Virus record (IMG/VR): IMGVR_UViG_3300046804_002724
Coordinates: 1 to 64,000 of that record
Length of the DNA stretch: 64,000 nt
DNA from: a virus
Strand: one strand, 5' to 3'
Shown: positions 2,179 to 25,646 of the stretch, one piece after another
How positions within the stretch are numbered: the stretch's first letter is position 1
Layout of the letters: every line of letters begins with the position of its first letter
Notes under the pieces: model-generated
Told to the model about the DNA's origin: nothing
The model's input: the letters and a program-made list of their open reading frames with translations, nothing else
Databases searched by the model: none
Made by a program: the position numbers and the translations under genes

Positions 2179-2240
2179 TATATTGCTTCTATTTTTCGGC
2201 TCACTTCCCGCCGCACTTTTTCACTTATTTGGAGAAATTT

Positions 2241-2834
2241 ATGTTTTATAATGATGATAATGTACAGAAAATAAAAGAAGAAGGTGTATGGCTATATAAA
2301 AACTTTATATCAGAAGATGAATGTGCAAAAATATTGCATGAAGTAGATAAGTTTACTGATAAAGATTGGCAAGATGGCTGGGCCAGACATCAAGGAACAT
2401 TGTTCTATTCCAATAGCCCAGAATCAGAAAAAGAAATTGAGGAGTGGTGGAATAATAAAGTAAGTCCGCCAGTTTTAATACCAACGATTACAAACATAAA
2501 CAAAAAATTAAAAGATTTGTTTTCTCCAGAATTAATATTTTTGCCAGAGTATAAAATTGTAAGATTGGTTCCTGGCCAAAACATGAAAGGTCACAGAGAT
2601 AACAGATCAGCAACAACTACATCTGAGGTTAAACAACAATTTACAATATCTTGTGCCTATACACTTTACTTAAGTAATTTTACTGGCGGAGAAATAAATT
2701 ATCCAGAAATTGGTTATACTCATGTTCCAGAGCCAGGCGATTTAATCATTCACGGGGGAACAGTTTTTCACGAAGTTTTTGATGTATTAGAAGGCAATCG
2801 ATATACAATCACTGGCTGGTTACTGAATAAGTAA
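2241..2834 (+). CDS. 2OG-Fe(II) oxygenase, prolyl-4-hydroxylase type
   Basis: A 197-residue protein with the jelly-roll core of P4H-like dioxygenases. The Fe ligands are H118-x-D120 (KGHRD) and H177 (VFHEV); R187 (GNRYTI) is the 2-oxoglutarate-binding residue. The conserved YLSNFTGGEINYP and EPGDLIIHGG segments lie between. Such enzymes hydroxylate Pro, Lys or other side chains using 2-oxoglutarate and O2. The ATG at 2241 is chosen because GGAG lies six bases upstream; an in-frame TTG at 2229 lacks this. All catalytic residues are present. It is separated from the main oxygenase cluster (18262-23884). Substrate unknown. Confidence 0.85.
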   Translation: MFYNDDNVQKIKEEGVWLYKNFISEDECAKILHEVDKFTDKDWQDGWARHQGTLFYSNSPESEKEIEEWWNNKVSPPVLIPTITNINKKLKDLFSPELIFLPEYKIVRLVPGQNMKGHRDNRSATTTSEVKQQFTISCAYTLYLSNFTGGEINYPEIGYTHVPEPGDLIIHGGTVFHEVFDVLEGNRYTITGWLLNK

Positions 2835-15732: not shown

Positions 15733-17118
15733 ATGGCAACAATAAGAAAAGGTAATAAGTCAGCTGCACAAGATAATTTTATTGGACCAAATCCAGTAAC
15801 AAATCTTGTTGCAACAGACGTAGGTTCTGGAAGAGCATATAATAACGGAAGAATAGATCTTTCATGGACTAATCCAACAACAGGAAATACGCCAACAGGG
15901 TATAAAATAATTAGGGGTGGCACAGAAATTGCAACTGTAGCACATCCAACTAATACTTATTCAAATACTGGCTTATCTTCAGCAACTTTATATTCTTATA
16001 CAGTAACCGCATATGATTCATATGCTTCAGCTTCTACATCAAATACTGCTACTGCTACTGCAACTACTGTTCCAGCAACAATGTCTGCTCCAACCGCAAC
16101 AGCTGCTGTTGATGCAGATACTGTAGCATGGACTGCTCCAGCTGATGGCGGTTCAACAATTATAGATTATTATATTGAATCTAATGAAAGTCCAGTAAAA
16201 ACAAAAACAGTAACTCAGGCTGGATCAGGAAATACAAACGTTACTAACGAAGCAAATACTTCTCAAGCATATAGAGTAAGAGCTAGAAATGCAAATGGAA
16301 GCGGAGATTTTTCTGGGTATTCTAACTCAGTTACAACGCAAGCTCCGTCTTTCTTTGGGCCACCAAGCTTCTTTAGCCCACCAGGATTCTTTGGACCACC
16401 AAGCTTCTTCGGTCCTCCAAGCTTCTTCGGTCCTCCAGGATTCTTCGGTCCTCCAGGATTCTTCGGTCCTCCAAGCTTCTTTGGTCCTCCAGGATTCTTC
16501 GGTCCTCCAGGATTCTTCGGTCCTCCAGGATTCTTCGGTCCTCCAGGATTCTTCAGTCCACCGTCATTTTGGAAGAGCGTTGGAATTAATACACTCTTAA
16601 GAACACCAAATGGAATGGTTTCGGCTGGACAAATTCAAGTAGGGGATGAAGTAATAGGACTTCAAATACCTGGAATGCCAGATAATTATTGGTTATTAGA
16701 TGATGGAACACATGGAACCTATCAAGATTTTGTGTATACTCCAGAACAAATAGAAAATGCAACAGAAGCAATTGTTACAGTAGTTGGTAAAAGACTACAC
16801 GAAACAGTTGGCGCCGTTGCGGTTAATGGTGATATTTATACAATAAATCACTTAATTCTTGCAAAAAGAGATGGGGAAATTAGAACATTAAATACCACTA
16901 CATTGCAAAATACTGATTTAATATATAACTATCAAACTAAAGACTTTGTACCTATTGAATCTTTAGAGCTTAATTCAGAAATTACAATTCAGTCTTATTC
17001 TATAAACGTAGAACCATGGGATTTCTACTTTACAGAAAATGGATTAACATTTGATATGCAAGCTCTGGAATCATCACTATCTGGTTCGAATGATCCAGAT
17101 GGACCAGGACCACTATAA
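15733..17118 (+). CDS. Fn3 - hexapeptide repeat - Hint-like domain protein
   Basis: A 461-residue protein in three parts. Residues about 15-112 and 115-205 are two fibronectin type III-like domains ([40 protein letters not shown]). Residues 205-276 are twelve hexapeptides P-(S/G)-F-F-(G/S)-P. Residues 282-441 resemble a Hint (hedgehog/intein) domain: [13 protein letters not shown] ... IQVGDEVIG at the start, block-B YTINH (T370, H373), and [13 protein letters not shown] at the end. The usual Cys1 is Ser282 and the usual terminal His-Asn is Phe440-Asp441, so self-splicing is doubtful; cleavage or a structural role remain possible. AGGAG precedes the ATG. It lies just upstream of the oxygenase cluster. 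Confidence 0.7.
16345..16560 (+). repeat. Twelve tandem 18-bp repeats
   Basis: Twelve 18-bp units of type CCAGGATTCTTCGGTCCT or CCAAGCTTCTTCGGTCCT encode hexapeptides with two prolines and two phenylalanines. Inner units are nearly identical in DNA, indicating recent expansion; outer units have diverged. A thirteenth partial unit follows. Confidence 0.92.
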
Positions 17119-17127
17119 AATTAATCA

Positions 17128-17667
17128 GTGAAGTTTAAAGTAGGTGAATCTGGAAAAGAAATAGATAAGAATATTTCTTATCAATCTTTTCCAGAAACAC
17201 TATATAAAGAAAAAATATGGGGTCATTTTGCATTTATTCATGACAAAGAATACCATATAAGAACAATATGTTCAGCATATAACACTGACAGATACGAACC
17301 TGGAACTATAGTTGTTTCAAATAAAGTATTTAATGAATTTCCAATAGCACAAAGTGCATGGAATATGGATAATAAAATTAGTAGAATGTATGTCGATCCA
17401 TTTTACAGAAATAAAAAAATTGCTACCTATAGCGTAATAACTAACGATATGTTGGCTGTAAAATTAGGATATGAAATATGGTCTATTATATATGGTGAAA
17501 AAGGTGGAACCGAAGCAGGAGATCAATTATATAATAGTATATATAATTTAGGTTTTGATGAAAAAAAGGTAGAAATAAATTATCAAGATATATTTCAGTA
17601 TAGAAATTTTTCACACCCAGTGAACTACATAGATAAGAGAATTGTTTATGTTGAATCAGCAATATAG
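17128..17667 (+). CDS. GNAT-like N-acetyltransferase fold protein
   Basis: The middle segment ISRMYVDPFYRNKKIATYSV matches motif A of GNAT enzymes (beta strand, then V-x-P-x-x-R-x-x-x-I, then helix). It is followed by LAVKLGYEIWSIIYG like motif B. N-terminal strands (WGHFAFIHDKEYHIRTICSA) fit the fold. GNAT enzymes transfer acetyl or acyl groups from CoA; the substrate cannot be read here. GTG start with a poor Shine-Dalgarno. First gene of the oxygenase-containing cluster. The Gly-rich CoA loop is imperfect, so activity is uncertain. Confidence 0.5.
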   Translation: MKFKVGESGKEIDKNISYQSFPETLYKEKIWGHFAFIHDKEYHIRTICSAYNTDRYEPGTIVVSNKVFNEFPIAQSAWNMDNKISRMYVDPFYRNKKIATYSVITNDMLAVKLGYEIWSIIYGEKGGTEAGDQLYNSIYNLGFDEKKVEINYQDIFQYRNFSHPVNYIDKRIVYVESAI

Positions 17668-18226
17668 TAAAATAAAATTTATTAAAAATAAATTAGACAT
17701 TGATTTTAATTTAGAAAATGTAGAATCAATGTCTTTTAAAAAAGATGAATTATATTATGTTGAAAACAACAGTTTAGTAAAACAAAAAGAAATATTTAAT
17801 TTTTCAAAAAATATATTCTCAATTTATGTAGATGAATGTTTTGATTTATATAAAAATATTTCTATAATTCTTAAAGAAGTTTGTAATCAATATGATATAA
17901 ATATTGAAAAACAAAAATATATGATTTTTGGCAAACTTTCAACGTATGGAGAAAATACAAATAAAAATTGGTATGATTTTCCAGGAATAAATATACCGCA
18001 GCTGCACGGGTTTTATTTTATAGATGATCAAGAACATTCTGTTTCATTTAAAAACAATAATAATGTAATTAAAGAAAATTTTTATAAAAATGAAATATTT
18101 ATAAATAAACCAACAGATCTAATTAATATAAAAGTAAAAAATGAATGTAAGATTGTAGAATTTTATATTTATCCAATGTTAATGTTAAAACACAATGAAC
18201 CAGGGGTCTGGATTCCAATCATTTAA
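17648..18226 (+). CDS. Hypothetical protein, possible degenerate jelly-roll (192 aa)
   Basis: No firm family. The C-terminal part (LHGFYFIDDQEHSVSFKN ... NEIFINKPTDLINIKVKNE ... EFYIYPMLMLKH) has the strand order of phage 2OG oxygenases. It lacks an HxD pair and a 2OG-binding Arg. It overlaps the GNAT-like gene by 20 bases and leads into the oxygenase cluster. Met3 of the longer frame (17648) is preferred to the TTG at 17642. Confidence 0.45.
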   Translation: MLNQQYSKIKFIKNKLDIDFNLENVESMSFKKDELYYVENNSLVKQKEIFNFSKNIFSIYVDECFDLYKNISIILKEVCNQYDINIEKQKYMIFGKLSTYGENTNKNWYDFPGINIPQLHGFYFIDDQEHSVSFKNNNNVIKENFYKNEIFINKPTDLINIKVKNECKIVEFYIYPMLMLKHNEPGVWIPII

Positions 18227-18261: not shown

Positions 18262-18960
18262 ATGTTACCAAATGCAGAATATTTAGCAACAGGAATAATG
18301 GTGTATAGAGATGTCTTTAAAAAAGAAGATAACTACATAGATAGATTAGAAAAAGCACTTGGATCTGAAGAAAACGTAAAATATAGTTGGCGTCCAGGAT
18401 ATACTGGGTATGGTGCAAAAAATTTAAAATATAGAGATTGCGTTGATTTTAAGATTAAGGTTAACGAAGATGAATCTCTTTCCGCACACATGGACAATAT
18501 AAGAAAAGAAGATCAGGATGATTTAGATAGAGATTTAATTAGAATTTGGCAAGATGCTTATTATGCACAATTACCAGCGGTAGATGACTATAGAAATATG
18601 TTTGGAATAGCACCACTAAAATATTGGGAATCTTTTAATTTTATTAGATATAATGAGGGTCAACACTTTCAAATTCATTCAGATCACGGATATTCATACA
18701 CCTGCGTTTTATCTCTTGTTGGATATTTAAACGATGACTATGAAGGTGGAGAATTACATTTTGATAAACTTGGCTTAACAATTAAGCCTAAAGCTGGAGA
18801 TTTATATCTTTTCCCTTCATCATATATATATTCTCATGCAGCAATGCCAGTAACATCTGGAACAAAATATTCAATTGTAACTATGCTAGATTATTTAGAA
18901 ACAGCTCATACTCCAGAATATAGAAACCTGGAGGCAAAATATTCTGGGTCATTACTTTAA
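18262..18960 (+). CDS. 2OG-Fe(II) oxygenase, P4H type (cluster member 1)
   Basis: A 232-residue dioxygenase. Fe ligands are H139-x-D141 (QIHSDHGYS) and H192 (YSHAAM). Lys202 (GTKYSIVTM) replaces the usual Arg that binds 2-oxoglutarate. The segment GYLNDDYEGGELHFDKLGLT is the classic P4Hc beta core, and IKPKAGDLYLFPSS the following turn. It should hydroxylate an unknown substrate using 2OG and O2. Its stop overlaps the next start (TAATG), showing coupling to the DUF6065 gene. Confidence 0.88.
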   Translation: MLPNAEYLATGIMVYRDVFKKEDNYIDRLEKALGSEENVKYSWRPGYTGYGAKNLKYRDCVDFKIKVNEDESLSAHMDNIRKEDQDDLDRDLIRIWQDAYYAQLPAVDDYRNMFGIAPLKYWESFNFIRYNEGQHFQIHSDHGYSYTCVLSLVGYLNDDYEGGELHFDKLGLTIKPKAGDLYLFPSSYIYSHAAMPVTSGTKYSIVTMLDYLETAHTPEYRNLEAKYSGSLL

Positions 18961-19658
18961 TGTATAATATTAAAGCATTTAGATTAAATGATTTAGGAAA
19001 TATATCTCCATCATCAGTAAAAAGAGATTGGATGGATTACACCTACGATAGACATGCCTATAATTGTTTTCCAGTAACTCTTACAAATTCTTTAGGTTGG
19101 AGCGTTTCTTTTCCAGAAGAAATTTCATTTATTTGGGATGGCATTTCAGATAGTTCTTCAGAACATGTCAAAGTCCTATCTGGAGAAAAATATGTTTCCA
19201 CTAGAAGAGCAAACGGAACTATTAGTTTTAATATAGGAATGGGCTTTAAAACTGAAAAAGATTTAAGTTTATTATGCATGCCCACTCCAAATATGTTTAT
19301 ACGTGGAGCACAATGTTTTACAACATTGATAACAACATCTTTTTTTCACGGAGATTTTCCAGTTGTTTGGAAAATTACAGAACCTATGATTAAAATTACA
19401 ATTCCAGCAAATACTCCTGTTGCAAATATAATACCAATTTCATTAACTAACTTGCAAAATTCTGAAATAGAATTTGTAAATATTAATGAGATGCCATCAA
19501 CTAATTGTGATCATGAAACTACAATGAAAAAAATTAAAGAAGCAACAGACAACGGCGGATGGACAAATTTTTATAGAGATGCAGTAGACGCATGTGGAAA
19601 TGTTTTAGGAGAACATGAAGTTAAGGCAATAAGGTTAAAGGTTTTAAATAATGGCTAA
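18960..19658 (+). CDS. DUF6065 family protein
   Basis: The sequence fits the DUF6065 pattern as I know it. The N-terminus has KRDWMDYTYDRHAYNCFPVT and TNSLGWSVSFPEEISFIWDG, followed by GTISFNIGMGF. The C-terminal part has TPNMFIRGAQ, FFHGDFPVVWKIT and IPANTPVANIIPI. No function is established for the family; the strand-rich pattern suggests a beta-sandwich. It lies between two 2OG oxygenases with overlapping starts and stops, so a shared pathway is likely. Members occur beside oxygenases in other phages to my knowledge, but I cannot check that here. Confidence 0.75.
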   Translation: MYNIKAFRLNDLGNISPSSVKRDWMDYTYDRHAYNCFPVTLTNSLGWSVSFPEEISFIWDGISDSSSEHVKVLSGEKYVSTRRANGTISFNIGMGFKTEKDLSLLCMPTPNMFIRGAQCFTTLITTSFFHGDFPVVWKITEPMIKITIPANTPVANIIPISLTNLQNSEIEFVNINEMPSTNCDHETTMKKIKEATDNGGWTNFYRDAVDACGNVLGEHEVKAIRLKVLNNG

Positions 19659-20367
19659 AATTACATTTCATTCAAATAGAACATATAATACTACGCAAAA
19701 TGAATTAAATCCTCAGCCAACCAAAAAAAATATGCCAAAATGGTTTGTGGAATCAAGTAGACATTGGTTTCCAGAAAATAAAGAAACATTATCTTTTAAA
19801 GCTTGTCCAGCAATTGTAGATGCTTTTTTAACGGGATATGTTTTAAAAACTCCTTGTGACATTAATTTTTCAAAAAATTCTATTAGTGATTTGTTTAAAG
19901 GTCATGTTGAAACCTTTAAGGCAATAACCGAAAAAGGGTATGAGGATTTTTGTGGATCAAGACCAACAATGCCAGGTTTTCCAATACCTCCAGGATTTGA
20001 AAAACATTTTCATTGGTATCCTAATTGGATGCCAGGATTAGAGCCTGGGTATAGTGCACTTTATGTACATCCTTTAAATAGATACGATTTACCATTCATT
20101 ACCCTCTCTGGTATAATAGATAATGATAAGATGAATACCCCAGGATTAATGCCATTTTTTTTAAAAGAAGGTTTTGAGGGGGTAATTCCAAAAGGAACAC
20201 CATATGTTCAAATTATTCCATATAAAAGAGAAGAATGGGAATCTTCTGAAAAAATGTATTCACTAGAAGAAATAGTTGAAAGACATGAATACCAAGCTAA
20301 TAAGTTTAGAGTTCCAGAAGGTGGAGCATATAAGAAAAAAGTTTGGTCTAGAAAGAGGTATGATTAA
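19651..20367 (+). CDS. Hypothetical protein, probable relative of DUF6065
   Basis: A 238-residue protein with KKNMPKWFVESSRHWFPENK, SFKACPAIVDAFLTGYVLKT and PGYSALYVHPLNRYDLPFIT. It also has NTPGLMPFFLKEGFEGVIPKG followed by TPYVQIIPYKREEW. The last part parallels the DUF6065 C-terminus (FPVVWKIT ... IPANTPVANIIPI), so the two are probably distant paralogues with the same fold. It overlaps the DUF6065 gene by 8 bases with AAAGG as ribosome site. Function unknown. Confidence 0.6.
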   Translation: MAKITFHSNRTYNTTQNELNPQPTKKNMPKWFVESSRHWFPENKETLSFKACPAIVDAFLTGYVLKTPCDINFSKNSISDLFKGHVETFKAITEKGYEDFCGSRPTMPGFPIPPGFEKHFHWYPNWMPGLEPGYSALYVHPLNRYDLPFITLSGIIDNDKMNTPGLMPFFLKEGFEGVIPKGTPYVQIIPYKREEWESSEKMYSLEEIVERHEYQANKFRVPEGGAYKKKVWSRKRYD

Positions 20368-21086
20368 TGAATATGATGAAATGGGACACAAGTGGAAACA
20401 TGTCCAACTTTAATGCTAAATCCATAACTCCCTCTGGATTTTTTGGCATTTCTGACAAAAATATTGTAGAAGTAGAAAACTTTATTACAGAAGAAGAGCA
20501 AAAAACCCTATTAGATTTTGCAAAAAATAATTCATCATTTGATGATCCTCCAACAGAATATAATGAAAATGGAACTGTTATTTACGACGAAAGACCATGG
20601 GTTAATAGGGTAGCAACTGGCGAAACTTTATTAAAAAATGGACCACATATAATACCTTTGTTGTTGGGCATCACGGATAGATTTAAAAAAATCATAGAAA
20701 ATTTTTTTGAAGTTGAAGTTATATGTACTGGACCCGCAATTGTCAGATGGCCTGTAGGAGCTAGACAGGAACCTCATGCCGATAAAGAATTACATGAAGG
20801 TCCAGATGCTGGAACTCCAAATTCTTTTCCTTGGTATGATATTGGAACAGTTTTTTATCTGAACGATGATTACGAAGGTGGAGAATTATATTTTCCAAAA
20901 CAGGGTATAGAATTTAAACCTAAAGCACGAGCAGGATATTTTTTCCCAGGAGATATGAATTATATTCATGGAGTAAGGCCTATACTTAAAGGATGTAGAT
21001 ATACTACTCCATATTTTTGGACTATAACAAAATTACCAGAAAAATTTAACGGACCAAAGGATTTTATAAATGAGTCAAATTACTAA
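20367..21086 (+). CDS. 2OG-Fe(II) oxygenase, P4H type (cluster member 2)
   Basis: A 239-residue dioxygenase. Fe ligands are H137-x-D139 (QEPHADKE) and H201 (NYIHGVR); R211 (CRYTTP) binds 2-oxoglutarate. Core strands FYLNDDYEGGELYFPKQG and FKPKARAGYFFPG are present. The N-terminal part (EVENFITEEEQKTLLDFAKN) is the usual helical P4H entry. All catalytic residues are intact. Its start is coupled to the previous stop; it overlaps the next gene by 17 bases. Confidence 0.9.
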   Translation: MNMMKWDTSGNMSNFNAKSITPSGFFGISDKNIVEVENFITEEEQKTLLDFAKNNSSFDDPPTEYNENGTVIYDERPWVNRVATGETLLKNGPHIIPLLLGITDRFKKIIENFFEVEVICTGPAIVRWPVGARQEPHADKELHEGPDAGTPNSFPWYDIGTVFYLNDDYEGGELYFPKQGIEFKPKARAGYFFPGDMNYIHGVRPILKGCRYTTPYFWTITKLPEKFNGPKDFINESNY

Positions 21087-21789
21087 ATATAAGGAAGAGT
21101 GTTTCTCAATAGATAATTTTTTAAGCAAACATGAATGTGATGCTATCATTGCATATACAGAATGGCTTGTTGAAAATAACATATTAGAATGGAATCAAAT
21201 TTCTTTTTATGATTCTTTCGCTATGGGATTTTGGCCATACGATCCAAATTTACAATATTTTGGATTACCTCAAAATTATTTTCATGATATTTTAAAGCCA
21301 AAAATAAAAGAAGCTTGTGAAAATGTATTAGGAAAAGAAGTTGCAGAGGTTAGTTATCATGCACAAAAATGGACTGACGGAGCTTATGCATCTTTTCATT
21401 CAGATAATTCAGATGAAGATGGAAATCCAACAGAGTTTGAAAGAAGTAAATATGCTGCTTTTATTTATCTAAATGATACTTTTGAAGGTGGCTATCTAAA
21501 TTTTAAACACCATGATGTAAAGATACATCCTAAACCTGGCATGATTGCTATTTTTGCTGGCGGATATACAAACGAACATGAAGTTACAAAAGTTCATAAT
21601 GGAACAAGATATACAGTAGGTTCTTTTTGGGATAATGCAGATGCTACATATACTGAAGAGCAAATTAAAGAAAGAGAAGAAAGATTAAAGAAAACAAGAG
21701 CAGAACAAGATTTAACTTATAAACAATGGGCAGAAGAAAAAGAAAAAGGAATTGTTCAGGAATATATAGGAAAATATGGTGAAAAATGA
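21070..21789 (+). CDS. 2OG-Fe(II) oxygenase, P4H type (cluster member 3)
   Basis: A 239-residue dioxygenase with H110-x-D112 (SFHSDNSD), H170 (NEHEV) and R180 (GTRYTVGSFW). Core segment AAFIYLNDTFEGGYLNFKHH and IHPKPGMIAIFAGG are typical. The last 45 residues are a charged helix rich in Glu and Lys, absent from its neighbours, perhaps for partner binding. Overlaps the next gene by four bases (ATGA). Confidence 0.9.
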   Translation: MSQITKYKEECFSIDNFLSKHECDAIIAYTEWLVENNILEWNQISFYDSFAMGFWPYDPNLQYFGLPQNYFHDILKPKIKEACENVLGKEVAEVSYHAQKWTDGAYASFHSDNSDEDGNPTEFERSKYAAFIYLNDTFEGGYLNFKHHDVKIHPKPGMIAIFAGGYTNEHEVTKVHNGTRYTVGSFWDNADATYTEEQIKEREERLKKTRAEQDLTYKQWAEEKEKGIVQEYIGKYGEK

Positions 21790-22640
21790 ATAAAATAGAA
21801 ATATATCCAAGAGTTACTGTATATAAAAATACATTACCACGAAATAAAGACTATACAAATCTTTTAAAAAAATCTGAAAAAGAAGATCCAAAATATTTTT
21901 TCCAAGAGTGGGCAGACTGGTATGGATTTGGTACCATGATGAATTTGCCAATGAATAACCCAGGAATACCATATGAAATTAATTCAGATGATGAATATGC
22001 ATTATTACAAAAAGATTTTTTACAAACTATAACAGACGCATATTATGCTTGTACTGCAGATTATGCAATATCAAACAATATTCAATTGCCAAACTGGGTA
22101 AATAATGGAATTTCAATATGTAAGTATTGGGAAAGTCCACCACAAAATACAATGGCAATGCATTACCACACAGATTATAGAGGATTTGACGCAGAATCAC
22201 CAGGTAAAAAATATGCAATAACATGTACAATTTATATAAATGATGACTATGATGGCGGAGGATTATCCTTTCTTAAAGAAGATTCTGGTGAGGTTATAGA
22301 CTATAAACCAGAAGCTGGAGATATAGTTATATTTCCATCAGGAGATCCAATAACTGGAGCATCACATTATTTCCATGGTGTAGATCGTGTAGATAACGGA
22401 GAAAAATATTTTATAAGATGTTTTTGGTCATATGATTTTGAAGGAACTCCAGAATGGCATGCCAATAAAGAAAAGTATGGCGAAGAGTGGGAAAAAATGG
22501 ATTCTGAGAGAATGAAAGAAGAGATACATTCTGGAAAATGGCATAAGTATTTAGTCAAGCCAGGAGAAGTTGATCCCAAGCTTGATAGATCAACACCATT
22601 TTTCTTGAAGGATAAAAATGCATATAAAAAAATTAGATGA
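21786..22640 (+). CDS. 2OG-Fe(II) oxygenase, P4H type (cluster member 4)
   Basis: The longest of the cluster (284 aa). Fe ligands are H128-x-D130 (MHYHTDYRG) and H197 (SHYFHGVD); Lys207 (GEKYFIRCFW) stands at the 2OG-binding position. Core TCTIYINDDYDGGGLSFLKE and YKPEAGDIVIFPSG are clear. The C-terminal extension of about 65 residues is charged and unique. It overlaps the next gene by 23 bases. Confidence 0.9.
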   Translation: MNKIEIYPRVTVYKNTLPRNKDYTNLLKKSEKEDPKYFFQEWADWYGFGTMMNLPMNNPGIPYEINSDDEYALLQKDFLQTITDAYYACTADYAISNNIQLPNWVNNGISICKYWESPPQNTMAMHYHTDYRGFDAESPGKKYAITCTIYINDDYDGGGLSFLKEDSGEVIDYKPEAGDIVIFPSGDPITGASHYFHGVDRVDNGEKYFIRCFWSYDFEGTPEWHANKEKYGEEWEKMDSERMKEEIHSGKWHKYLVKPGEVDPKLDRSTPFFLKDKNAYKKIR

Positions 22641-23232
22641 TAATGTTATTTATTATGAAAATGTTTTGGAATATCCAGAAAATTTTATCAATAAGATAGA
22701 GGAATTAGAAGTATTAAATAGTAATACCACTCAGGTTTCAAGGTGGTCTGAATGGAATGCCAGCAATGAAAATAAAAGGTACGGTATTACAAAAAATGGA
22801 AATTTTTCTTCTATGCAATATGCAACTAAAGAAGATATAGAAACTTCCCTACTAGTTTATAAAATAAAAGCTATTTCAGATTTATGTTTTGCTAATTATA
22901 TGAAAGAAACAGGTTGTAATTTTTTAAAATTACCAGATTATTTTAGTATAAGAAAATATGATATTTCTGTTGATATGGGTGCCCATGTAGATTCAGAAGA
23001 TCCAACAGATAAATCTCATCCAGTAGTTTCTGGAGTTTTATATTTAAATAATGACTATGTAGGCGGAGAAATATATTTTCCAGAACAAAATATTAAAATT
23101 AAACCAGAGGCTGGAAGCATGGTTATGTTTCCAGCACATAGACCATATTTGCATCACCCTCTCCCAGTAATAGAAGGAAGCAAATACATGGTTCCATTTT
23201 TTTGGTACCCAATGGATACCGTTTGGAAATGA
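22618..23232 (+). CDS. 2OG-Fe(II) oxygenase, P4H type (cluster member 5)
   Basis: A 204-residue dioxygenase with H123-x-D125 (MGAHVDSED), H179 or H180 (YLHHPLP) and Lys189 (GSKYMVPFFW). Core GVLYLNNDYVGGEIYFPEQN and KPEAGSMVMFPA are typical. AAGGA precedes the ATG inside the previous gene. It is the closest relative of the decayed gene that follows, judging from NVIYYENVLEYPENFINKIE against TVYFKNVLSEPDKLIEFINE. Confidence 0.88.
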   Translation: MHIKKLDDNVIYYENVLEYPENFINKIEELEVLNSNTTQVSRWSEWNASNENKRYGITKNGNFSSMQYATKEDIETSLLVYKIKAISDLCFANYMKETGCNFLKLPDYFSIRKYDISVDMGAHVDSEDPTDKSHPVVSGVLYLNNDYVGGEIYFPEQNIKIKPEAGSMVMFPAHRPYLHHPLPVIEGSKYMVPFFWYPMDTVWK

Positions 23233-23233
23233 A

Positions 23234-23884
23234 ATGGGTCCTAAAAAAAATTTTTGGTCAATATTATATGAAAGGTCTCAACGTAAAATGATGTACTTGC
23301 CAACAATTATGGGCGATAGAACTGTATACTTTAAAAATGTTTTATCAGAACCAGATAAACTTATAGAATTCATAAATGAATGCGACCTGGATGAATCTAC
23401 TCATAATTTTATTTCAAAGTGGAAAAGTGTTACAGAAAAAATACAAACAAAAGAGTTTATAAAAAATGAAGATGGAATATCTAAAAGAAATATTCAAAAA
23501 CTTATTTACATATATAATAGTTTTTATAGAGTAATTTTATTTTGTAAAGAACATTATTTAAATTTTGCAATGAAAGAATCTACAGATCTATTTGATTTAT
23601 CATTAATAAAAATATCGGCATCTGAAAATTTTGAAAATATTTTTAAAGAAGAAGATGAAGATACTATTAATTTTTATATACTAATAAATCCAGAAGAAGA
23701 CGGAATACCAATGTGTGTTAACAAAAAACATAACATATACATAAATCCAGAACCTAATACAGCAATAATGATTCCAGGCAATATAGAGCATTATATTTGT
23801 GTTAATAAGAAAAATGATTTATATTATATTAAAGGAAAATTTAATTTAAATGGAGATAGGTTAGTAAAAACTAACATATTATAA
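23234..23884 (+). CDS. Decayed 2OG oxygenase paralogue (non-catalytic)
   Basis: The full length can be aligned by eye with the gene before it: TVYFKNVLSEPDKLIEFINE at the start, then INFYILINPEEDGIPMCVNK, IYINPEPNTAIMIPGNIEHY and LYYIKGKF. The HxD pair is gone (SENFENIF at the expected place), as is the GG of the core. Only H186 remains. The frame is still open, so it is retained as a protein, perhaps a regulatory or structural partner of the active enzymes. Start uncertain; Met19 (23288) is an alternative. Confidence 0.65.
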   Translation: MGPKKNFWSILYERSQRKMMYLPTIMGDRTVYFKNVLSEPDKLIEFINECDLDESTHNFISKWKSVTEKIQTKEFIKNEDGISKRNIQKLIYIYNSFYRVILFCKEHYLNFAMKESTDLFDLSLIKISASENFENIFKEEDEDTINFYILINPEEDGIPMCVNKKHNIYINPEPNTAIMIPGNIEHYICVNKKNDLYYIKGKFNLNGDRLVKTNIL

Positions 23885-23885
23885 A

Positions 23886-25646
23886 ATGTATTATTCAGCA
23901 ATATTAAAAGATTCGCCAGTTGGTTTTTGGAAATTAGACGAACCATCTGGTGCAATTGCCTATGATTATTCTGGTTGTGGAAATGATGGGCAATACATCG
24001 GTGGAATAAACAAAGTAGACCTACCATTAGTCCCAGGTGGATTACACTCTAATAAAATTACAGAAAATCAAACAATTGATTTTAATATAACAAAAGATTT
24101 TTCTGGACAGCTAGGAGTTGGTGGATTTGGAATACAAAAAACAGAGGATAATGATTTTTCTTTTGAAGTTTGGTTTCATCCCAAAAATATAACAGGGCTA
24201 ACGCCTATACTCGCAGATAATTCTGGTATTGGTATATATTGGGATAATGGAAATATTGTTTTTAAATTAGAATCTGAAAGAATTGATTATGCAGTCCCGT
24301 ATAGAAATAAATCATTTCACGTCGTTGCAACATATGAAATAAATGTAATAAGATTATATGTTGATTCTCAATTAGTTGTTTCTAAATTTATAGATCCAAT
24401 AATATTTTCAAATGAAGAATTATCTATTAAAAGTGGTCCATCGGCAACAGGCGAATATTTTTTAATAGATTCTCCAGCCATATATAGATATTCTTTAAAT
24501 ATTAATAAAGTAATTTCTCACTACCAACATGTAGATACAAATACTAGTGTTCAAGTTGTAAAAAGTAATTTTGGACAGCTATTTAAATCAACATTGCAAC
24601 ATCAATATCAACCAGATCAATTTGCATGGCCATCATATATTCCATTTAACCTTTTTGAAAATGATAATATAATACACAGAAAAACAACAAATAGTTTATA
24701 TTTAAGCGGAACTACAAATGCATATTTTTTAACATCAATAGGACCATCATCATCTAAAAATTATATTTCATCAAAAATAGAATGGTTTGGCGGAGAAGGG
24801 ATATCTGTATACTCTTCACTAAATTATGATGGAGAAAACACTATATGGGAAGAATGTACAAATGGATCTTATATCCCAGGCATATGTCTTGGACAAACAT
24901 TTTTAAATGAAAAAGAAATATATTTTAAGGTAGAGTTTAATTCAGATGACATAAATTTATATGTTCCAGAATTATATTATATTGGCGTATATCTTTATGA
25001 AGATAAAAAACTTTATTCTCATAACGGAAGATCTTTTATTTCAGTATCAGAAACTGAATCTGTTCCGTGTTGGGATGTAGATTTTTCTAACAGAGAATAC
25101 CAATTAATTTCTAGAAATTATGATAATGGAATTAGATCTTTGGGGGCGGGATTTTACCTAGAAACAGTAGATGAAAATCAATCTATAGAATTAATATTTA
25201 CACCCAAATCTTTAGGATCTGGATATTTAATTTATAATAATACTGATAGTTTAGAGTATAGTGTATCTTGGATGTCTAATGGAGCTTTAACAAAATCTAA
25301 TATATCTGGCTTATATATAAATGGTCAAGATGTATCTTTGGCAACAAATATATCTTCTTATTTAAACATCGATGAGCCAAATTATATATTAATAAAAACA
25401 AATAACCCCATCACTGGTCAAATATGGTTTAATACAAAATCAGAAAATTCAGTCAGAACTGGTACCCTGGATAATAACTTATACAGCCTTATTGCAATTT
25501 ATGAAAGCGAAAACATAGAACATTTAACTAATTATAATATTTATATAGGTAATGAAAGCATCTCAAATAGCCCATCTGTAATGACATTAAACGATATTGG
25601 GCCTTCCACATATGATTTTGACTGGGTTGTGTTAGATAACGCTTAA
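23886..25646 (+). CDS. LamG / concanavalin-like adhesin or fibre protein (586 aa)
   Basis: The N-terminal domain (SPVGFWKLDEPSGAIAYDYS ... FSFEVWFHPKNITGLTPILA ... KSFHVVATYEINVIRLYVDS) is a LamG-type jelly roll, a common sugar-binding or structural module in phage fibres. Two further beta-rich regions follow (residues about 245-400 and 400-586, including SIELIFTPKSLGSGYLIYNN), likely related jelly rolls. It begins just after the oxygenase cluster and ends before the head genes. Probable virion surface protein; ligand unknown. Confidence 0.7.
   Translation: MYYSAILKDSPVGFWKLDEPSGAIAYDYSGCGNDGQYIGGINKVDLPLVPGGLHSNKITENQTIDFNITKDFSGQLGVGGFGIQKTEDNDFSFEVWFHPKNITGLTPILADNSGIGIYWDNGNIVFKLESERIDYAVPYRNKSFHVVATYEINVIRLYVDSQLVVSKFIDPIIFSNEELSIKSGPSATGEYFLIDSPAIYRYSLNINKVISHYQHVDTNTSVQVVKSNFGQLFKSTLQHQYQPDQFAWPSYIPFNLFENDNIIHRKTTNSLYLSGTTNAYFLTSIGPSSSKNYISSKIEWFGGEGISVYSSLNYDGENTIWEECTNGSYIPGICLGQTFLNEKEIYFKVEFNSDDINLYVPELYYIGVYLYEDKKLYSHNGRSFISVSETESVPCWDVDFSNREYQLISRNYDNGIRSLGAGFYLETVDENQSIELIFTPKSLGSGYLIYNNTDSLEYSVSWMSNGALTKSNISGLYINGQDVSLATNISSYLNIDEPNYILIKTNNPITGQIWFNTKSENSVRTGTLDNNLYSLIAIYESENIEHLTNYNIYIGNESISNSPSVMTLNDIGPSTYDFDWVVLDNA

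Follow-up and report, generated by a model that had tools for sequence, protein, structure and literature searches.

In aquatic phages, few unexplained enzymes are as common as the 2-oxoglutarate (2OG)-Fe(II) oxygenases of PHROG 61, and the roles proposed for them so far are metabolic. According to the available parts of two reports, cyanophage genomes often carry several of these oxygenases, with a proposed role in 2OG and nitrogen control (PMC3037559), and EGLN3-like enzymes, structurally similar to human EGLN3, are widespread in marine phages, no substrate being named (PMC12774648). In these same parts the role is metabolic or left open, and neither a fibre substrate nor a DUF6065 partner appears. 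Repeat structural proteins encoded together with homologues of their modifying enzymes have been described in mimivirus, for collagens (PMC9546862). Here, we analysed a cluster of 2OG-Fe(II) oxygenase and DUF6065 genes located next to a repeat-bearing tail fibre gene in a window of 64,000 nucleotides, positions 1 to 64,000 of the virus record IMGVR_UViG_3300046804_002724. This record is 64.6 kb long and carries tailed-phage genes; the phage is from freshwater, and many of its relatives possess a similar enzyme cassette.

The cluster is composed of eight frames, from 18262 to 23884, encoding five intact 2OG-Fe(II) oxygenases (OG1 to OG5), two DUF6065-type proteins (D1 and D2) and one ligand-less oxygenase relative (23234). 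It sits between the fibre gene 15733 and the portal gene. Its oxygenases fall into the same PHROG as the marine-phage enzymes and share with bacterial and viral prolyl 4-hydroxylases (PDB 3itq, 5hv0; PF13640) the double-stranded β-helix, the HxD...H iron triad and the basic 2OG anchor. Unlike those hydroxylases, they comprise five distinct enzymes that form, along with a pseudo-enzyme and DUF6065, one apparently coupled gene block next to a repeat fibre. The mimivirus case differs in that an amoebal giant virus, collagen repeats and lysyl modification are concerned, whereas here tailed phages combine a PPxFF repeat, multiple prolyl 4-hydroxylase-like enzymes and DUF6065 (PMC9546862). Small genes directly following a fibre gene also recall gp38 of T-even phages, a fibre-tip helper encoded downstream of its fibre gene; this likeness is drawn from position, not sequence, and the genes here encode oxygenases and a predicted dUTPase-like fold. 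The enzyme family is ordinary, the assembly is unusual and its linkage to the fibre is strong. No phage prolyl hydroxylase acting on fibres was reported in the literature searched, nor did this search return any work on DUF6065.

The enzyme cluster is genetically linked to PPxFF repeat fibres

To assess the linkage blindly, IMG/VR was scanned for DNA encoding PPxFFxPPxFFxPP, oxygenases not being considered, and a collagen GPx pattern was submitted to the same procedure as a control. A 2OG oxygenase was present in 95 of the 119 PPxFF loci and in only 9 of the 120 collagen-pattern loci (p about 1e-32, such p-values being too small and overstating the case since the PPxFF contigs are related and not independent). 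Similarly, a DUF6065 gene was found in 79/119 PPxFF loci versus 3/120 controls. Many of the PPxFF loci without an oxygenase are truncated by contig ends: among the 21 loci having 3 kb or more of sequence on either side of the repeat gene, 20 had an oxygenase no more than 3 kb away, at a median distance of 70 bp. On contigs of at least 30 kb, 2OG oxygenases occurred on all PPxFF contigs (26/26, with 3-15 each) against 8 of the 33 collagen-repeat controls, and DUF6065 on 26/26 against 2/33. The reverse search, starting from DUF6065, retrieved the repeat in 29 of the 32 loci with 2 kb of upstream flank; the three others carry a Phe/Pro-rich stretch (L019) or TPTP stretches (L060, L061). Gene order and strand vary among PPxFF contigs, some of them having an inverted oxygenase between the fibre and OG1, yet the neighbourhood is kept. 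Collectively, these data show that, in dozens of phage lineages, the enzyme cluster is strongly linked genetically to the PPxFF repeat fibre. Since 2OG enzymes and DUF6065 are missing from most contigs with collagen repeats, collagen was discarded as the shared substrate class.

The fibre protein 15733 matches tail PHROGs. Its repeat, of general form [ASG]PP[GSA]FF, is strikingly hydrophobic and is present in nearly all orthologues having the region. In loci fetched via DUF6065, without use of the repeat, PP is found between FF units in 229/229 cases and FF between PP units in 232/234. Position 1 is Ala in 45%, Ser in 32% and Gly in 14% of the repeats across relatives. Since this position is occupied by Ala, Ser or Gly, the repeat is not collagen; indeed, the protein scored 22.7 bits with PF01391, for a cut-off of 27.2, and has no unbroken Gly-X-Y array.

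Concerning the C-terminal domain of 15733, inspection by eye suggests a Hint-like organization, of which the window lineage has lost the first Cys and the final His-Asn; Pfam gave no Hint match in the fibre C-terminus. By the same reading, the repeat fibres of L048 (3995-5311), L042 (3585-4868) and L051 retain CVEENT...HNK, and self-processing may still be possible in these three.

Five ancient and distinct oxygenases retain complete active sites

All five cluster enzymes (starting at 18262, 20367, 21070, 21786 and 22618), and not four as first proposed from the sequence, possess the HxD...H triad together with the 2OG-binding K/R, and each also matches PF13640. The same four residues are kept in the separate enzyme OG0 (ATG at 2241, frame from 2229), which had been noticed as an additional intact enzyme and becomes the sixth in the count. 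The curated PF13640 cut-off is passed by OG1, OG3, OG4, OG5 and OG0; for this cut-off of 27, OG2 scored 26.2 bits with hmmscan and 28.1 bits in the genome search. Within each orthologue group (n=56-132), the H, D and H columns are invariant except for alignment gaps, for instance H 132/132 and D 132/132 for OG1, and either K or R occupies the anchor position, which bears out the full ligand sets initially described. OG1 is the enzyme type located immediately upstream of DUF6065 in most relatives, and the closest solved structure to it is the prolyl 4-hydroxylase 3itq (3.5e-06). More generally, the solved structures matched by the 2OG profile (P3H1, P4H, PiuC, LH3, EGLN1) are all peptidyl or PKHD-type hydroxylases. 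Weak, sub-threshold matches were also obtained to Tet_JBP, for OG1 and OG3, and, for OG3, to the peptide-maturation 2OG oxygenase YhhC.

The active cluster enzymes have ratios of nonsynonymous to synonymous substitutions (dN/dS) of 0.03-0.16. In a tree of 81 oxygenases, each of them groups with its counterparts from distant phages, with Shimodaira-Hasegawa-like approximate likelihood ratio (SH-aLRT) supports of 99 for OG1, 97 for OG2, 99 for OG3, 100 for OG4 and 93 for OG5. The cluster enzymes are therefore ancient distinct paralogues, separately kept, which argues against redundancy. The initial suggestion of different roles is thus supported by the existence of a proper clade for every enzyme type across diverse phages; the different C-terminal extensions on which it relied are clear for OG3 (21070) and OG4 (21786) only.

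The eighth frame, 23234, is intact (216 aa) and shows a dN/dS of 0.12 relative to its nearest relative, and the HxD...H triad is absent from it and from its orthologues in every relative examined. Since the ligands are missing in the orthologues too and the frame evolves in this way, 23234 is, judging from its sequence, a conserved pseudo-oxygenase under purifying selection. Its previous description as a decayed paralogue was rejected on these grounds.

DUF6065 proteins have a predicted dUTPase fold

D1 is a genuine DUF6065 protein, with 105.8 bits for PF19541 (cut-off 26.6). D2, for which hmmscan against Pfam gave no DUF6065 match, is a remote relative (phrog_7084), its link to D1 resting on a weak profile comparison and on a shared predicted fold; the pair had been correctly announced as a DUF6065 gene and a probable relative. 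D2 has two conserved stretches, GIIDxD and GTPxxQxxPxKRExW. A combined alignment was too diverse as a search query; the two proteins were modelled from separate alignments (predicted local distance difference test of 82.2 for D2 and 79.7 for D1) and the models searched separately against the PDB. In both cases, the top matches were dUTPases and dCTP deaminases. Among the matches listed, the VIA rows were dUTPases in 50/50 cases for D1 and likewise for D2, with best Z of 11.0 (D1) and 10.4 (D2). In a viral structure library, uncharacterised phage proteins ranked top and dUTPases next. Both proteins are thus predicted from their models to adopt the dUTPase fold, which Pfam did not reveal.

At the sequence level, searching the PDB sequences with a DUF6065 profile returned chance matches only, the D2 set gave neither a dUTPase match nor anything useful against Pfam, and hhalign against dUTPase gave probabilities of 0.8% and 0.3%. 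The predicted fold of DUF6065 emerged from the structure searches alone. The GIIDxD of D2 resembles dUTPase motif 3, the subsequent Tyr and Arg-Gly being lost, and D1 is devoid of GIIDxD. Hence, unlike true dUTPases, neither protein has the complete catalytic motifs or a sequence profile match, and the likeness to the dUTPase/dCTP deaminase family resides in the predicted fold (Z 10-11) and in this partial motif of D2. The dUTPases are typically trimers; by analogy, a trimeric DUF6065 partner would suit a trimeric fibre.

D2-like genes were also observed elsewhere. In Hafunaviridae haloviruses, a D2 relative adjoins thymidylate synthase (L021:8848-9738, L022:8848-9717; HRTV-7 gene 38, HSTV-2 gene 40) and, given its predicted dUTPase fold, may be an unrecognised nucleotide enzyme. 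Gammaproteobacteria metagenome-assembled genomes (L302-L309) carry DUF6065-type genes about 40% identical to phage D2, with tandem pairs in L306 and L308.

DUF6065 and 2OG genes accompany other low-complexity fibres

Similar associations exist in unrelated phages, where a DUF6065-2OG pair lies beside fibres with QPGNP (L312) or ANQP (L313) repeats. In both collagen-control contigs having DUF6065, a 2OG gene is adjacent to it and is itself downstream of a QPGNP or ANQP repeat fibre. In L060, a TPTP repeat protein is followed by 2OG - D2 - 2OG, and in L186 and L206 a collagen-like or glycine-rich repeat fibre is near DUF6065 and 2OG genes. Furthermore, DUF6065 adjoins a 2OG gene in 75 of the 80 loci of the L324-L403 clade. 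The association of a low-complexity tail fibre, DUF6065 and a 2OG enzyme is thus a general rule. A further gene of the L324-L403 clade (e.g. L328:4848-5402) displays an HTD...H pattern and may be an extra oxygenase.

A probable fibre-maturation cassette

We infer that the cluster is probably a fibre-maturation cassette, in which the oxygenases hydroxylate the repeat of the adjacent tail-tip fibre, proline being the likeliest residue, and the DUF6065 proteins act as partners. The five enzymes would work while virions are being produced, using Fe(II), O2 and 2-oxoglutarate for the hydroxylation of the adjacent low-complexity fibre repeat, which in this phage would be the (G/S)PP(G/S)FF array of 15733, most likely on its prolines. 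D1, D2 and the pseudo-oxygenase could act as non-catalytic partners that hold the fibre, probably a trimer, or align it for the enzymes, or could aid its folding. The benefit could be the solubility or stability of the hydrophobic PPxFF rod, or an altered receptor binding. More tentatively, and with a lesser chance of being right, oxygenases of differing position or residue preference could write a hydroxylation pattern on one PPxFF repeat at the fibre tips, guided by a scaffold made of a repurposed trimeric dUTPase-fold DUF6065 and the pseudo-oxygenase; the result would be a novel type of fibre rod bearing post-translational modifications.

The part of the original prediction that pointed to virion modification is strongly supported by the linkage, since the cluster tracks the repeat fibre and the enzymes are recovered when only the repeat is searched for, and the idea of distinct roles is supported as well. 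Its statement that glycan, nucleotide or host-protein targets were equally open was too generous, such targets being much less supported. The co-occurrence of DUF6065 with 2OG oxygenases, which it had proposed to check, was positive in phages and negative in haloviruses and on Gammaproteobacteria contigs.

Several observations weigh against a fibre-maturation role. Adjacent genes can be transferred as a block even when neither acts on the other. Moreover, the PPxFF phages are related: when the oxygenase closest to the repeat is clustered, identity thresholds of 50% and 70% yield about 10 and 32 groups, respectively. In the L324-L403 examples read, the fibre tips upstream of the DUF6065-2OG pairs are glycine-rich, and the fibre repeats of L315 (NQGSQ, SGTNQQYNAAY) contain no proline; proline is therefore the best candidate in PPxFF phages and not a universal one. 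Finally, the halovirus DUF6065 relatives stand next to thymidylate synthase with no neighbouring 2OG enzyme, and stand-alone DUF6065 genes on Gammaproteobacteria contigs have no 2OG neighbour either, so that the partner role is not universal.

These glycine-rich and Pro-free fibres flanked by DUF6065-2OG pairs favour a rather unlikely alternative, according to which the tail fibre or tip adhesin is modified at residues that are not repeat prolines (Asn, Asp, Lys, Phe), the repeat merely marking the kind of fibre. The weak YhhC match of OG3 and the presence of the lysyl hydroxylase LH3 among the structural relatives go in the same direction. On the other hand, the multi-enzyme PPxFF phages strictly keep PP and FF in the repeat. 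Known peptide hydroxylases of the 2OG oxygenase fold mostly act on Pro, Lys, Asn or Asp, and the repeat core contains no Lys, Asn or Asp.

It is very improbable that the enzymes serve host metabolism, by altering the 2-oxoglutarate level or modifying host proteins during infection, as proposed in the available part of a report for the 2OG-Fe(II) oxygenases that are numerous in cyanophages (PMC3037559): a single enzyme would be enough to lower 2OG, and this phage retains five old, distinct paralogues, located between its fibre and portal genes. Equally poor odds are given to shared ancestry alone, in which case a single successful block would have been disseminated along with the tail module, with no functional tie to the repeat. 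The relatedness of PPxFF contigs speaks for it; it fits badly with a neighbourhood kept despite varying gene orders and strands, and with similar fibre-2OG-DUF6065 trios in unrelated phages. Least of all do we expect a nucleotide or DNA chemistry, with DUF6065 acting on dNTPs like dUTPase and the oxygenases oxidising bases like TET/JBP, since the modelled dUTPase fold, the thymidylate synthase neighbours in haloviruses and the sub-threshold Tet_JBP matches are opposed by incomplete motifs in D2 and D1, by the lack of any sequence match to dUTPase and by the position of the cluster among fibre genes, away from the DNA genes at 56-61 kb.

A fibre-maturation cassette would give these very common phage enzymes a job which, as our analysis suggests, is new, being so far unassigned to them in the literature searched. 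The linkage supplies a concrete and testable candidate substrate, the neighbouring fibre repeat. If the proposal is true, it describes a phage counterpart of collagen hydroxylation, supplies DUF6065 with both fold and context, and shows that sequence alone may not reveal all the chemistry on which a receptor-binding fibre depends.

Gene organization and flanking genes

The eight frames of the cluster overlap or abut by 1-23 bases (Table 1), consistent with the translational coupling of oxygenases and DUF6065-type genes put forward earlier. In close relatives, the order is fibre - two small genes - OG1 - D1 - D2 - OG2 - OG3 - OG4 - OG5 - pseudo-oxygenase - LamG - portal. In more distant ones the block is enlarged or rearranged; in L048, for instance, there are eight 2OG genes and DUF6065-type genes number three. 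The coordinates and content first assigned to the cluster were borne out, apart from the enzyme count and the "decayed" label. Promoter and terminator scans gave a signal no better than shuffled sequence. A nucleotide search of a phage collection with the window gave no match, and among cultured phages neither D1 nor the 15733 fibre was matched; therefore, no cultured relative of known host is available for comparison.

Table 1. Features of the window
Feature	Position	Strand	Evidence
OG0, separate intact 2OG-Fe(II) oxygenase outside the cluster, H122 D124 H181 R191	2229..2834, ATG at 2241	+	PF13640 2.7e-07
Fibre genes	7.5-17 kb		
Tail fibre/tip protein: N-terminal fn3 domains, (G/S)PP(G/S)FF x11, degenerate Hint-like C-terminal domain (putative); proposed substrate	15733..17118	+	fn3 2e-08
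PPxFF hexapeptide repeat array, residues 209-274	16357..16554	+	repeat mapping
Pair of small conserved genes separating the fibre gene from OG1	17128-17667, 17642-18226		family searches without match
OG1, intact 2OG-Fe(II) oxygenase, H139 D141 H192 K202	18262..18960	+	PF13640 4.6e-16
D1, DUF6065 protein, predicted dUTPase fold	18960..19658	+	PF19541 3.3e-30
D2, remote DUF6065 relative (phrog_7084), predicted dUTPase fold	19651..20367	+	PHROG match, model
OG2, intact 2OG-Fe(II) oxygenase, H137 D139 H201 R211	20367..21086	+	PF13640, ligands
OG3, intact 2OG-Fe(II) oxygenase, H110 D112 H170 R180, charged C-terminal extension	21070..21789	+	PF13640 2.4e-10
OG4, intact 2OG-Fe(II) oxygenase, H128 D130 H197 K207, C-terminal extension	21786..22640	+	PF13640 1.1e-10
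OG5, intact 2OG-Fe(II) oxygenase, H123 D125 H179 K189	22618..23232	+	PF13640 1.4e-09
23234, conserved pseudo-oxygenase (putative), 2OG-oxygenase relative lacking both the Fe ligands and the 2OG-binding residue	23234..23884	+	2OG profile 3e-37 (profile set may include 23234 orthologues)
LamG/concanavalin-like lectin-fold protein directly 3' of the cluster	23886..25646	+	PF13385 2e-08
Portal	26051		
Head protease	27687		
Capsid-type protein	29024		
Large tail genes	34.9-55 kb		
Replication genes	56-61 kb		

For the two small genes at 17128 and 17642, family searches returned no credible family; by eye, the 17128 product resembles a GNAT acetyltransferase (YVDPFYRNKKIA). On the other side of the cluster, the LamG protein evolves much faster than its neighbours, with 45% identity to its nearest relative and a dN/dS of 0.35, as would be expected for a receptor-contacting part.

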